From Verrucomicrobiota bacterium (GTDB lineage Bacteria > Verrucomicrobiota > Verrucomicrobiia > Limisphaerales > JADLHS01): a stretch of 35,109 nt of DNA. Positions 24,367 through 28,842 of this stretch are shown one piece after another. The position numbers and the translations under genes were made by a program. The first letter of the stretch is position 1. The number at the start of each line of letters is the position of its first letter. Where the stretch lies: the NCBI GenBank assembly GCA_025350905.1, contig JANXWY010000035.1, positions 1 through 35,109 of the forward strand, given 5' to 3'. The notes under the pieces are model-generated. The model was not told the DNA's origin. It saw nothing but the letters and a program-made list of their open reading frames with translations, and ran no database searches.

Positions 24367-27300
24367 TTATTCTTCGGAGACAGTATCACGTCCGCGGATT
24401 TCGCGAAACTGTTTACTCCGCACGATCGTCTCCACGGCGGCGCTGAAGCGGTAATCGTGCGCGGCCAACTGCCGTTGCATTTCCGTCACCAACGGTTTGT
24501 CGGACAACCTCACGCTGCGGCCCAGTGCGTAGCCCAGCAGTTTGCGACAGAATTGGCGGAGCACCGCATCGCGCTTTTTCGTCAGGAGATAATCCCGCAG
24601 ACCTTCCGCGCCTTCGACCTCTGTGCCGTCGAACAGCTTCGCGTGGGTGTCAATCGGCCGGTCGCCCAGGTCGCGGGTGCGGGTGCGGCCAATGGTGTCG
24701 TAGCCTTCGAGCGCGTAGCCGTAACCATCCATGCGCGCATGGCAACCGGCACAACGCGGATCACTGGTATGTTTTTCGGTCAACTGACGCACGGTCAGAG
24801 TCTCCAGGGCTTCGTCCTCGGGTAACCGCGGAACATCCTTGGGCGGACGCGGGAGTTTTTCACCGAGGAGCACTTCGGAGAACCAGTTCCCCCGGAGGAT
24901 GGGACTCGTGCGGGAGGCGCCGGAATGTTTCGCCAGGGTCGCGCTTAGGCCCAGAATGCCGCCGCGCCCAAATTTCTTCACGCCCTCCACCCGCCGCCAT
25001 TCCGGCCCAGTCACCCCAGGGATGCCGTAGTTCAGCGCGAGACTCTCATTGAGAAAAGTGTGATCCGTGTCGAACAGTTCCAGCACCGAGGCATCGTTCT
25101 GGAACGCGTCGGTGAAGAAGCGGATCGCTTCCTCGTACATCGGGCCGCGCAGACTGGCAAAGGTCGGGAAATGCCGCTCGCTCTTTTCGTCGAGTGACTC
25201 GAAATCGTGAATGTGCAACCAGGCACAGGCAAACTCGATGGCCAGCCGGCGCACCCGGGGATCAGGCAACATCCGTCGGGCCTGCGCCACGAGATTGTCT
25301 GGAGGGTGAAGTTTTCCCGCCGCCGCGGCGTTGCGCAATTCCGAATCGGGCAGTGAAGACCAAAGGAAATAACTTAACCGGCTGGCCAGCTCCCAGTCCG
25401 ACACCGGCCCCGACGTCGTTCCGGGAGCGGCCTTTTCCAAGCGATACAAGAATGCCGGCGCCACGAAAACGCGAGCGAGCGTGAGCCGGATGGCTTCATC
25501 GTGCGGCAGTTCCTCCGCGCGCAACTGGCGGTATAATCCGCGTAAATCAGCTTGCTCGCTGGTGGTCAGCGGCCGCCGATAAGCGCGGCTGGCGAATTCC
25601 AGCACGCTCTCAACGTGCTGCGGTTGTGAGTTGGTGAGCAACTGCCGAAACGCCGCGGCCCGGTCATTGATCGGCTTGCGCATCGGCTCGAAGACCTTCG
25701 GGTCGGCGTCCTGAGTGGCGTATTGCCAGAGTTGTTCGAAGGCGTCCACCAGCGTGAGCGCGTCCTGGCTGACGTAGTGCAACTCGTCCCACAGCCGGTC
25801 GAGCCGGGCCTGCTGCGCCTCGTCGAGCATCAAGCGAGAAAGGTGGTCGTCTTCGCGGTAGAACAACGTGAGGGTCACCACTTCATCCACCGGCACGATT
25901 TTGGTGTAGCAGAGGGCGGCGGGGAACCAGTAGCGAAATTCCTCCAAGTTGCCCTCGATTCGCTTATGCGCCGCACTGCCTTCCACGATGACGATCGGGG
26001 TGCTATGGATGACCGGCTTATCCGGATCGGTCCAGGTTCCCTTGCTGTTCTGGGTGGTGGACGCACCGGGCAGCAGTGTTTTGGTATCGGTGGGTCTGGT
26101 GGTGAGGGCCTGCAATTGAACACTGCCTTCGGCGCCGGTTTTCGGATCCAGAATTCCGGTCGTCACAAACTCGGCGCCCGCCACGAGGTCAGCGGGCAGG
26201 CGGATTTCAAGCACTGACGGGGCCTGCACGCACAAGCTGCCCGCGTCGATCTCAGATCCGTCGGGACGATGGCCGAAGCGAGCGGCGTCGAGGCCCACTG
26301 TACTCGTAGCCGCCGACGTGAGGAGGCTCTGATTTTTCGGAGCGGAAGTTTGAGCCTCCTTACGTCGGCGGCTACGAAAAGCACGAGCGTCCTTGAACAA
26401 TGGCCCGCTCAGCGAAGCCATCTGTTTATAGAGTTTGGCGTCCGGACTGTCCTTCGCCGCCGGCGCGCCGGAGGTCAACAGCGTCTGCACCGCTAGCGCG
26501 AGGCTGAGCTGCTCCTCGGCGCGTTCGGCGGATTGCCATTGGGCCAGCAGCGAGCCGGCCGGAATGACCGGGCCGCTTTCGCCGCCAGACACGGGCTCGG
26601 TATAGAAATGCCAGATCCCGTCGTTGCCGAAACGGTCGGCGTGGGGATTGCCCGCCAACACATCCGGCGAAACGTCGCCCGTCAAACTCCATTCACGCCC
26701 GCCTTCCCCTGCGCCCTGGAGCACGAGTTCAATATCTGTGAGGTCGCACGAATGATTGCCATCGCGCGCGCCGATGACCAGCGAAACCAGATCTCCCGTC
26801 TGCACGGCGAGCTTTTCAATCGGGCCGAACTTCACTTCCTTGCCGCCCTGAGCCGTGCCTTGAGCCAGCCGCTGACGGGTGGGGCCGCGACGGAGTTCGA
26901 GCGACCACTCGATGCCGTTGCCGCATTCGGGATGCGCGTGCGTCACCCGGCCTTCGACCCGCATCGTTCCGGCGAGCGGGCTGCGCCAGCCCACGGCCAC
27001 GTTCCGGGTTGGCGAAGGATGAACGACGACGCCGTGCGGCTTCATGTTTCCGGGAATGCGCACCGGCTGGTCGGAGGAATTGGCGAGCAACAGCGGAGTC
27101 TCGGCGGAACCCCAGCCGTTGACGAAGTCATAGCCGGAGGACTTGTGCATCTGGTTCGTGAAATAATCGAGCCGGGGCGCAGTTCGCGAACCAATCCCAA
27201 AATAATCGAACCACGCTTGAAGCGCGGCGGGGTCCACGGTGTGACGGCGAGCAAGCTCGGCAACATCAGGCTGGTTGGTGGCGGCGCTGACCTCAGCCAC

Positions 27301-28653
27301 GGCGGCAAGGCACTGCGCCGTGGCTGTGAAAATAATATCCCGCCGCGCCGTCAACTCGCGGGTGACGTCCCCGACGTCGCGCAGCAGCAGATCGGGTTGG
27401 CCGGCCACCACCAGTCTTGGCTGTTGCCAGAGCACAAAATCATTGGTGTTGCCATCGCCCGCATCGCCCGCCACAAGATAAATCACGACTTCGTTGCCGT
27501 TCGTCGGCGCGGCGAGTTGGAGGCGGACTTCCTGTTTCGAGCTCAACGGGCTGATCGGCTCCAACCATGCCTTCGGACCGCCGACCTTGCCGATGTGCCC
27601 TACGCTGCTGAATTTCCACAGGACCTTTTGCCACTGCGCGATGTCGGCCGCGAGTGAAGCCACATCCGCGGGAGTGGCAACGCGCCAACGCGCACGCACC
27701 GGGTCAAGCAGGAGGGAGGGCTCATTGCGGTTGAGCAAGTCCCAAAGCCCGGCAAGATATTTCGCGCTCAGACCGCGTTGGCGCGCGACCGTTTGGAGCT
27801 GCGTTGCATCCGGGCGCAACGCCAGCGTCGCGGACAGATATTTTTCCAACGGCAACCGCCCGCCCTTGTTCTTGTCCAACTCCATGCCCTGCTGGGTCAC
27901 CGTTTCCGCCCCGCCGACCTCGGTGAAGGCGGCATAGAACCCGCGAATCTCCGCGAGGATTTCCTCGGTCCAATCGCGCCGGGTCGTCCCCGGGGAGAAG
28001 CGCAAACCCGCCGGCAACAGGACGGCGTGGCTGGCGATGTCCTTGCCCGCGTCGAGATATTTGGTGATGAGCGCGGGCGACATCACGAGCGCATTGCCCG
28101 TGTTCATGAAGCCTTCACCGGCCGCACTGTCCGCCGGAAATTCCTTCACCGGATTGAGCGACTCGACCCCCGTGAGATCGCGTACGGTGTAGGTGTATTC
28201 GGCATTATTGAGCCGGCGCAGCACAACCGGGCCCGGATCGCCCGCGTGGGCCAGCGCCGCTTCATCCAGCGCGCGATCCACCCAACGGAGCAATCGCTGC
28301 CGCTCGTCGTTCGTCGGCTGCGGTTTTTCCTTCGGCGGCATTTCGCCAAGGGACAATTGCTCGACCACGCGCTCCCACTCCCTGGGGTGCTTGAGCACTT
28401 CGCGGAATGAAGTAAAGCGTTCCAGATCCAGATCGCCCTTATGCTTCTCGGTCGAATGGCATTTGAGGCAATACGCCTGCAGCAACGGGCGGACGCTCGC
28501 GCCGAATTCTTTGGCCGGGTCTCCGGCCGCTTGGGCGGCGCCACCGCATACCGACGCGAATAAAAAAGCGATCCCAATGCGCGCCGGCAGGCCGACACTA
28601 CCAAATCGCGCTGCCGCGAAATGGCGTGGGCCGCTGGTAGCTGGAGAATTCAC
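24367..28653 (-). CDS. DUF1592/DUF1588/DUF1585 PSD cytochrome protein
   Basis: A 1428-residue exported protein with the PVC-specific set of domains (PSD1 cytochrome, DUF1587, DUF1595, DUF1592, DUF1588, DUF1585). The start is GTG at 28653, giving a signal peptide (IGIAFLFASVCGGAAQAA). The first heme-binding motif CLKCH is at 62-66, followed by the family pieces EMPPKEKPQP, VVLRRLNNAEYTYTVRDL and EFPADSAAGEGF. The C-terminal third has FASRAYRRPLT, YRLEKA, ELASRLSYFLWSSLPD, FDTDHTFLNESLA, RTSPILRGNW, a second CAGCH at 1301-1305 and the DUF1585 end. About 700 residues separate the N- and C-terminal modules and include a carbohydrate-binding-like region. Residues about 759-784 are encoded by an inverted repeat and look foreign. 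The protein is presumably a periplasmic electron carrier or dehydrogenase; the substrate is unknown. Confidence 0.93.
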   Translation of the reverse strand: MNSPATSGPRHFAAARFGSVGLPARIGIAFLFASVCGGAAQAAGDPAKEFGASVRPLLQAYCLKCHSTEKHKGDLDLERFTSFREVLKHPREWERVVEQLSLGEMPPKEKPQPTNDERQRLLRWVDRALDEAALAHAGDPGPVVLRRLNNAEYTYTVRDLTGVESLNPVKEFPADSAAGEGFMNTGNALVMSPALITKYLDAGKDIASHAVLLPAGLRFSPGTTRRDWTEEILAEIRGFYAAFTEVGGAETVTQQGMELDKNKGGRLPLEKYLSATLALRPDATQLQTVARQRGLSAKYLAGLWDLLNRNEPSLLLDPVRARWRVATPADVASLAADIAQWQKVLWKFSSVGHIGKVGGPKAWLEPISPLSSKQEVRLQLAAPTNGNEVVIYLVAGDAGDGNTNDFVLWQQPRLVVAGQPDLLLRDVGDVTRELTARRDIIFTATAQCLAAVAEVSAATNQPDVAELARRHTVDPAALQAWFDYFGIGSRTAPRLDYFTNQMHKSSGYDFVNGWGSAETPLLLANSSDQPVRIPGNMKPHGVVVHPSPTRNVAVGWRSPLAGTMRVEGRVTHAHPECGNGIEWSLELRRGPTRQRLAQGTAQGGKEVKFGPIEKLAVQTGDLVSLVIGARDGNHSCDLTDIELVLQGAGEGGREWSLTGDVSPDVLAGNPHADRFGNDGIWHFYTEPVSGGESGPVIPAGSLLAQWQSAERAEEQLSLALAVQTLLTSGAPAAKDSPDAKLYKQMASLSGPLFKDARAFRSRRRKEAQTSAPKNQSLLTSAATSTVGLDAARFGHRPDGSEIDAGSLCVQAPSVLEIRLPADLVAGAEFVTTGILDPKTGAEGSVQLQALTTRPTDTKTLLPGASTTQNSKGTWTDPDKPVIHSTPIVIVEGSAAHKRIEGNLEEFRYWFPAALCYTKIVPVDEVVTLTLFYREDDHLSRLMLDEAQQARLDRLWDELHYVSQDALTLVDAFEQLWQYATQDADPKVFEPMRKPINDRAAAFRQLLTNSQPQHVESVLEFASRAYRRPLTTSEQADLRGLYRQLRAEELPHDEAIRLTLARVFVAPAFLYRLEKAAPGTTSGPVSDWELASRLSYFLWSSLPDSELRNAAAAGKLHPPDNLVAQARRMLPDPRVRRLAIEFACAWLHIHDFESLDEKSERHFPTFASLRGPMYEEAIRFFTDAFQNDASVLELFDTDHTFLNESLALNYGIPGVTGPEWRRVEGVKKFGRGGILGLSATLAKHSGASRTSPILRGNWFSEVLLGEKLPRPPKDVPRLPEDEALETLTVRQLTEKHTSDPRCAGCHARMDGYGYALEGYDTIGRTRTRDLGDRPIDTHAKLFDGTEVEGAEGLRDYLLTKKRDAVLRQFCRKLLGYALGRSVRLSDKPLVTEMQRQLAAHDYRFSAAVETIVRSKQFREIRGRDTVSEE
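26304..26377. repeat. 26-bp inverted repeat inside the DUF1592 gene
   Basis: Arms at 26304-26329 and 26352-26377 are complementary at 25 of 26 positions (G at 26320 faces T at 26361), with a 22-base loop. The element begins TCGTAGCCGCCGACGT. It is in frame and stop-free on the minus strand and adds about 25 residues rich in Ser, Arg, Lys and Ala (SRRRKEAQTSAP then SLLTSAATST) to the protein. Confidence 0.85.
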
Positions 28654-28745: not shown

Positions 28746-28842
28746 GCTGGGCCCTCCGGCATCCTTGCCGGCGGGTTTCCGCTTTTCCCAATGTCGTCAC
28801 TTTTCAAAACCATTCGCCGGCACGGATGCCGGCGCTCCCAGC
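28746..28842. repeat. REP/BIME-like palindrome pair
   Basis: Two 28-base units in opposite orientation lie at 28746-28773 and 28815-28842. They match at 24 of 28 positions as an inverted repeat, and each carries its own small hairpin (CCGGC-ATCCTT-GCCGG at 28756-28771; CGCCGGC-ACGGAT-GCCGGCG at 28815-28834). The 41 bases between them are AT-richer. This is the geometry of bacterial interspersed mosaic elements. It lies in the 227-base gap upstream of the DUF1592 gene. Confidence 0.7.

Follow-up and report, generated by a model that had tools for sequence, protein, structure and literature searches.

A GTAG-tagged REP doublet in frame in a DUF1592 gene of Limisphaerales and the recurrence of palindromic repeats in the same protein loops

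Introduction

A long palindrome lies inside the coding sequence of a DUF1592 gene in a Verrucomicrobiota bacterium of the order Limisphaerales (assembly GCA_025350905.1, contig JANXWY010000035.1), and this raises the question of how a sequence of this kind became part of a protein. The stretch of DNA that was analysed, here called the window, comprises 35,109 nucleotides and is contig 264 of the source assembly (6.27 Mb, 489 contigs, 95% complete). A first-pass annotation, based on the letters of the DNA, had described the palindrome as a mobile intergenic repeat captured in frame. Here we investigated the element itself, its copies in this and related genomes, and the loops of host proteins in which such copies are found.

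The palindrome and its host gene

The inverted-repeat listing of the window placed the element at 26304-26377 first among 17 inverted repeats. Its 26-nt arms (26304-26329 and 26352-26377) are 96% complementary, with one mismatch, and are separated by 22 nt. Arms and open reading frame thus confirmed the annotated palindrome within coding sequence. The features of the locus are as follows.

24367..28653, minus strand: host gene of the DUF1592/PSD type with an N-terminal cytochrome c-like domain, 1428 aa, GTG start at 28653 (ORF and Pfam)
26304..26377, minus strand: whole element, a REP doublet (REPIN type), stop-free as residues 760-783 (repeat, ORF and fold data)
26306..26329, plus strand: REP half-site GTAGCCGCCGACGTGAGGAGGCTC, the right arm in gene orientation, 24-base extent, with no mismatch to the family pattern of 22 bases
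26330..26351, minus strand: variable 22-nt loop between the arms, whose length and sequence vary from copy to copy in the genome
26352..26375, minus strand: REP half-site GTAGCCGCCGACGTAAGGAGGCTC, the left arm in gene orientation, 24-base extent, with no mismatch to the family pattern of 22 bases
28746..28842, no strand assigned: a different palindrome from a separate multi-copy family, no part of the captured element (inverted-repeat listing and pattern count)

The element strand folded into a single long hairpin of -30.8 kcal/mol as DNA (z -8.6) and of -51.1 kcal/mol as RNA (z -9.7). In both cases 0 of 200 shuffles folded as well, thus the palindrome goes beyond what is expected by chance.

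The host protein contains the domains PSD3/DUF1587, PSD5/DUF1595, PSD4/DUF1592, PSCyt3/DUF1588 and PSD2/DUF1585. As annotated, the element was read through without stops, as R760-T783 (RSRRRKEAQTSAPKNQSLLTSAAT), and this insert falls between PSD3 (146-211) and PSD5 (1016-1073). The annotated gain of about 25 low-complexity residues held for the length, which is 24 residues, but the peptide is polar and charged and not really of low complexity. In an AlphaFold (AF2) model of residues 480-1010 the pLDDT was below 50 at 746-794, around the insert. The model was of mediocre quality, with a mean pLDDT of 64.8 and low values elsewhere as well; as far as it can be read, the predicted insert region is consistent with a floppy linker. 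The best seven named matches to the host gene were labelled Limisphaerales or Verrucomicrobia/Verrucomicrobiales, and the lower-ranked named matches had mixed titles, many of them Planctomycetes.

The second palindrome, directly upstream of the host gene, has 28-nt arms (86%) and a 41-nt loop. Within the sampled 0.93 Mb its arm GGAGCGCCGGCATCCGTGCCGGCG gave 12 matches with at most 4 mismatches, the window copy counted, versus 0 for the reversed control, and we therefore regard it as another repeat family. A palindrome resembling it was seen in the PrmC loop of a relative (G011, L331).

A high-copy family of GTAG-tagged half-sites

The arm core GTAGCCGCCGACGTNAGGAGGC was found in the own genome as 101 + 92 = 193 half-sites at up to 3 mismatches, and the reversed-pattern control gave 0 + 0. 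This copy number rules out a lone chance palindrome; copies elsewhere in the genome, which the first-pass annotation had named as support for a mobile repeat, were thus present. A BLAST search with the whole element against the same genome returned 65 matches, including the self match and matches of one place on both strands. Among 56 relatives, at least one half-site was detected in 46 and at least ten in 29, with a maximum of 204 + 175. As the reversed control gave 0 to 3 matches per genome in these relatives, single matches there may be due to chance.

To describe the doublets we used a sample of 69 stretches (0.93 Mb of the own genome), picked for holding matches; these loci, L051-L119, were drawn from the first 100 of the 193 half-sites and from the BLAST matches. 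At up to 4 mismatches the sample contained 190 half-sites, which formed 69 inverted pairs with a span of 60-101 nt and 52 singles. The GTAG tag was intact in 107 of the 138 arms of the doublets. Within an arm, bases 6-12 can pair with bases 17-23 around a GTNA loop. Over 189 half-sites, stem pair 12-17 was C-G 155 times and G-C 22 times (Fisher 1e-22), and pair 6-23 was A-T in 119, C-G in 33 and a C-T mismatch in 29 (7e-17). At positions 10-19 and 11-18, G-A and A-G mismatches predominated (170 and 171 of 189). The common single arm folded no better than shuffled sequences (z -0.15; 86 of 200 as good), and the single arm of the window slightly better (z -1.4). A variant with a perfect stem, form B (GTAGCAGCGGACGTGAGTCCGCTC), was present in the own genome (G000) and in G004 and folded well alone.

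With a short stem-loop tagged at one end with GTAG, compensated changes at pairs 12-17 and 6-23, and high-copy dispersal in the genome, the repeat has the anatomy of a GTAG REP, apart from the weak fold of the single arm. Inverted REPs and their spacer also behave as a unit, in 69 pairs whose arms match each other at position 6 (68 doublets, p = 0.005). With a GTAG-tagged REP half-site as each of its arms, the element at 26304-26377 is a REPIN-type REP doublet.

Doublets in frame in other genes

The same open coding frame was found on both sides of 26 of the 69 doublets, which were called in-gene when both 240-nt flanks scored as coding; given how the loci were chosen, this fraction applies to well-conserved doublets. 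Of the remaining 43, 34 had at least one flank that was not clearly coding, 6 had flanks on the same strand but in another frame, 1 kept the frame but contained a stop, and there was 1 each with convergent and with divergent flanks. When random positions in the same loci were subjected to the same test, 245 of 600 were called in-gene, thus the doublets are not visibly depleted from genes. The claim of a mobile repeat captured in a gene was supported in this way and widened from one gene to many.

The frame of the first arm was of the SRREEA type in 21 of the in-gene doublets and VAADVRR in 5. The span from GTAG to CTAC had a remainder of 1 on division by 3 in 21/26 in-gene doublets versus 21/43 of the others (p = 0.011), the outcome expected if the two arms have to share a reading frame. 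Pfam families were matched by each of the 23 proteins that hold the 26 inserts, namely the DUF1592 protein of the window and 22 others. RecQ, PrmC, ArgJ, HsdM, ValS, an SNF2 helicase, XseA, DnaK, BioA, AcrB and HrpB are among the hosts, and NCBIfam names were assigned for ten host proteins. Similar REP-coded peptides were found in unrelated proteins. A UvrA-like ORF of 2047 aa (L052:12385-18525) contained two in-frame doublets, and a hybrid histidine kinase ORF of 2352 aa (L080:4782-11837) contained three.

The DUF1592 linker in orthologues

Orthologues of the host gene were matched in 119 of 320 genomes of the order, the own genome included. From these 98 loci were taken, of which 86 rows passed the coverage filter and 12 were dropped. 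Among the 86 rows the linker between ...GPLF/L and GLDPALFG was variable. REP-positive rows were recognized by visual inspection of peptide and DNA. In 10 rows from 8 families the linker had a doublet at one common position and in one common frame: the congeneric L021 and L022 (f1), L222 and L258 (f27), L227 (f8) with most of the left arm lost, L253 (f28), L037 (f39), L134 (f51) in decayed form, and L025 (f26) and L033 (f46) with form B stems. In the right arm of L037 the 12-17 pair was flipped. The REP-coded peptide was absent or not intact in the other 76 rows, some of which had decayed remnants (L032, L028, L035, L130, L233, L255 and L257).

The first-pass annotation had proposed a clean gap in orthologues as support for an insertion, and the same residues in distant orthologues as evidence against it. 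The peptide was indeed missing in most rows, but the gap was not clean, since the length of the DUF1592 linker is variable; a clean gap was found in ValS, described below. Residues of this kind did occur in distant orthologues, although as differing subtypes and not in one clade. The closest orthologue (G004, 80% identical) also has the element, thus no empty site was available within the genus for this gene.

On a gene tree with the linker removed, parsimony required 8 changes when the partial rows L032, L233 and L255 were counted (13 rows) or 7 for the strict ten, with gain and loss not separable. A single clade of doublet rows was rejected (p-AU 7e-6) on a quick tree of 34 rows of our choice that included 9 of the 10 doublet rows. 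Family f7 was scattered over the host-gene tree, which conflicts with the genome families, so transfer or paralogy of the PSD gene plays a part.

Other repeats were seen in this linker as well. In L267 and L268, the orthologues in G141 and G143, a long palindrome (CTCACCCC...CTCTCCC / GGGAGAGGG...GGGGTGAG) lies in frame and translates as LTPALSPGER...LPLPAGEGRGEGE. Several f27 rows had a tandem repeat in the same linker (GCAATTC in L225).

Taken together, the differing subtypes, the lack of a single clade and the unrelated repeats in the linker point to recurrent capture plus some inheritance. Inheritance is likely in two DUF1592 clades. On the same grounds the insert as ancestral protein sequence was rejected.

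The same loops in ValS, PrmC, XseA and DnaK

Five genes were compared (DUF1592, ValS, PrmC, XseA and DnaK), all selected for having an insert in G000; for PrmC, XseA and DnaK the alignments held the best-scoring 30 rows each. The ValS loop was 18 residues long in 11 of 17 rows, the congeneric G002 and G004 included. Three distinct doublet subtypes occupied it in G000, G007 and G009, which belong to three genera, and other long repeats were found in G010, with a REP arm at the end, and in G014. The congeneric G003 had a short different insert. As the unfilled loop is constant in length, the direction of change in ValS is gain.

In PrmC and XseA the doublet was present in G000 and G001 only, among 30 rows each; the loop had at most 18 residues in 20/30 PrmC rows and at most 20 residues in 18/30 XseA rows. 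Some of the longer loops of these two proteins hold other repeats, among them a second GTAG-type repeat and other palindromes. The XseA loop of L362 (G009) and L375 (G034) contained a different GTAG-tagged palindrome of the GTAGCGGCGGTC...GACCGCCG type, and that of L363 (G036) a TTCAAGCTTCAGCTTG palindrome. The DnaK loop varied from 9 to 45 residues, with doublets in G000, G001 and G004 and an altered form in G010 and G011. The reading frame of the left arm in DnaK differs between G000 (L088) and the congeneric G001 and G004 (L409, L390), and the protein frame is regained past the element. More than one kind of repeat was thus found in the loop in four of the five genes examined, and more than one doublet subtype in DnaK.

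Search for a mobiliser

The own genome gave 16 matches to Y1_Tnp, 15 of them above the cut-off. Of the 16 loci, one lay about 0.9 kb from a doublet, and another had a single half-site with 4 mismatches. In nine relatives, with 57 matches in total, a half-site was found at one of the 30 loci scanned. No RAYT gene directly flanked by the REP was found among the 16 own and 30 relatives' loci (1.9-3.3 kb each; 489-contig genome). The half-sites near Y1_Tnp loci correspond to about the number expected from background density, thus no RAYT association was observed and a RAYT gene flanked by this REP was rejected as a candidate. The element looks mobile, judged indirectly from the filled and unfilled ValS loops.

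Interpretation

We consider it quite probable that doublets inserted repeatedly, that selection filtered the insertions and left copies in permissive loops, and that the DUF1592 element is one of these genome-wide GTAG REP doublets. The source pool would be the GTAG-tagged doublets (REPIN type) dispersed in the genomes of Limisphaerales, and a single-strand transposase of the HUH/Y1 type would act on the single-stranded GTAGCAGCCGACGTGAGGAGGC hairpin. Insertion into the DUF1592 gene would have occurred in a phase where both arms stay open, the commonest one (CGT AGC MGC CGA CGT ... TCG GMG GCT ACG). Owing to this stop-free phase the gene would have stayed open, the protein gaining a loop of 24 residues, and the copy may have been retained because the interdomain linker tolerates extra sequence. 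Intragenic insertions elsewhere are assumed to have been purged. The loop is probably translated and harmless, and its recurrence would reflect selection rather than target preference.

That the DUF1592 linker captured a doublet once, early, followed by decay or deletion and by subtypes arising through mutation or gene conversion from other copies, appears unlikely to us. Position and frame agree in all ten doublet rows, the congeneric L021 and L022 share the doublet, and the 7 or 8 parsimony changes could be losses as well as gains. Inheritance with decay is also the simplest account within two clades, that of f27 and that of L025, L033, L037 and L134, in which degraded remnants were recognized by eye in L032, L028, L035, L130 and L257. 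Against a single event, however, the subtypes are distinguished by compensated changes in the stem (form B in L025 and L033, the flipped pair of L037), nine of the ten doublet rows do not form one clade, and in ValS the unfilled loop is constant over most rows. Recurrence could alternatively be an insertion bias and not survival alone, if the mobile element or its single-stranded state preferred loop-coding sites, and the several doublet subtypes and unrelated palindromes in the same loops would suit such targeting. But the LTPALSPGER-type palindrome, the tandem GCAATTC, another GTAG repeat and the TTCAAGCTTCAGCTTG palindrome use these loops as well, and such unrelated repeat types fit tolerance better than the target choice of one machine, so that we regard targeting as improbable.

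Recruitment of the insert, either for a protein function (as a loop for binding, or in contact with a membrane or partner) or for control of the mRNA via the hairpin, is in our judgement very improbable. The strong RNA hairpin inside the message and the perfect match of both window arms to the family pattern would agree with it; yet the peptide is dictated by the repeat and recurs in similar form in unrelated proteins, and most orthologue rows are without an intact copy. It is hardly credible that the segment escapes translation by bypass or excision, or reflects an assembly artefact, since a stop-free frame and a span bias would be needless in a skipped segment and like inserts occur in many separate assemblies, those in PrmC and XseA at matching positions in G000 and G001.

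Beyond the preferred reading of repeated insertion and selective survival, we propose tentatively, and at rather less than even likelihood, that in Limisphaerales fixed loops of DnaK, ValS, PrmC, XseA and PSD proteins, all regarded as core proteins, are landing pads which different repeats refill independently, perhaps with an insertion preference. If this is true, palindromic mobile repeats would be a steady source of new protein segments, and the same loop would have been rebuilt independently many times. The in-frame doublets described here show that mobile palindromes can contribute protein sequence genome-wide in bacteria outside Rickettsia. The sampled part of one genome provided 26 in-frame insertions, for which the insert-free orthologues of relatives serve as controls, and several of the insert-bearing host proteins are universal and structurally well known. 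Such a set could reveal which loops of proteins can accept about 25 foreign residues, and whether a function is acquired by any of these loops.

Comparison with known systems

The first-pass annotation had likened the element to the palindromic elements of Rickettsia. The analogy is valid insofar as Rickettsia RPEs, as described in parts of PMC10969869 and PMC3733652, are palindromic repeats in frame in many unrelated genes that add tens of residues, and the doublets studied here likewise occur in frame in unrelated genes (26/69 doublets, 23 proteins). In contrast, the tag of R. conorii RPEs is CGTC (PMC3733652, in the part concerned), the RPE is about 150 bp long (PMC10969869, likewise) and the phylum is another one, whereas the tag here is GTAG. 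Membership in the Rickettsia RPEs was rejected on the tag.

REPINs (Bertels and Rainey 2011, PMC3116915) resemble our doublets, in the sections of that paper considered, in being inverted REP doublets with a variable spacer, a long hairpin and compensated changes, the doublet being the unit. In the same sections REPINs are studied extragenically and linked to RAYT, whereas here a good part of the sampled doublets lies in frame in genes and RAYT adjacency was not found at the loci scanned. TnpA-REP recognition is treated in part of PMC8266576.

GTAG REPs inside ORFs have been reported before, most of them in Opitutus terrae (Verrucomicrobia) (Di Nocera et al. 2013, PMC3733652). According to the relevant passages of that study, dimers or groups, coding for 20-30 residues, make up over half of the intragenic inserts, and uvrA genes of Opitutus terrae have double REP inserts, to which the double insert in the UvrA-like ORF of L052 is parallel. 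The same passages describe recB of two Xanthomonas species, X. campestris and X. oryzae, in which different REPs occupy roughly one position, and further genes of a category whose insertion sites differ. Our limited literature search returned no report of intragenic REPs in Verrucomicrobia beyond PMC3733652, and no report of the same loop being reused by different repeats across species in several genes. Compared by description and not by consensus, the GTAG REPs of Di Nocera et al., as presented in these passages, and ours have in common the GTAG tag, the stem-loop, paired inverted units, many copies and the location in ORFs. They differ in that another order is concerned here and that, in the genes examined, a given loop of a gene holds different repeats in several species. 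In-frame GTAG REPs are therefore already published, and recurrent capture by the same loop is the newer part.
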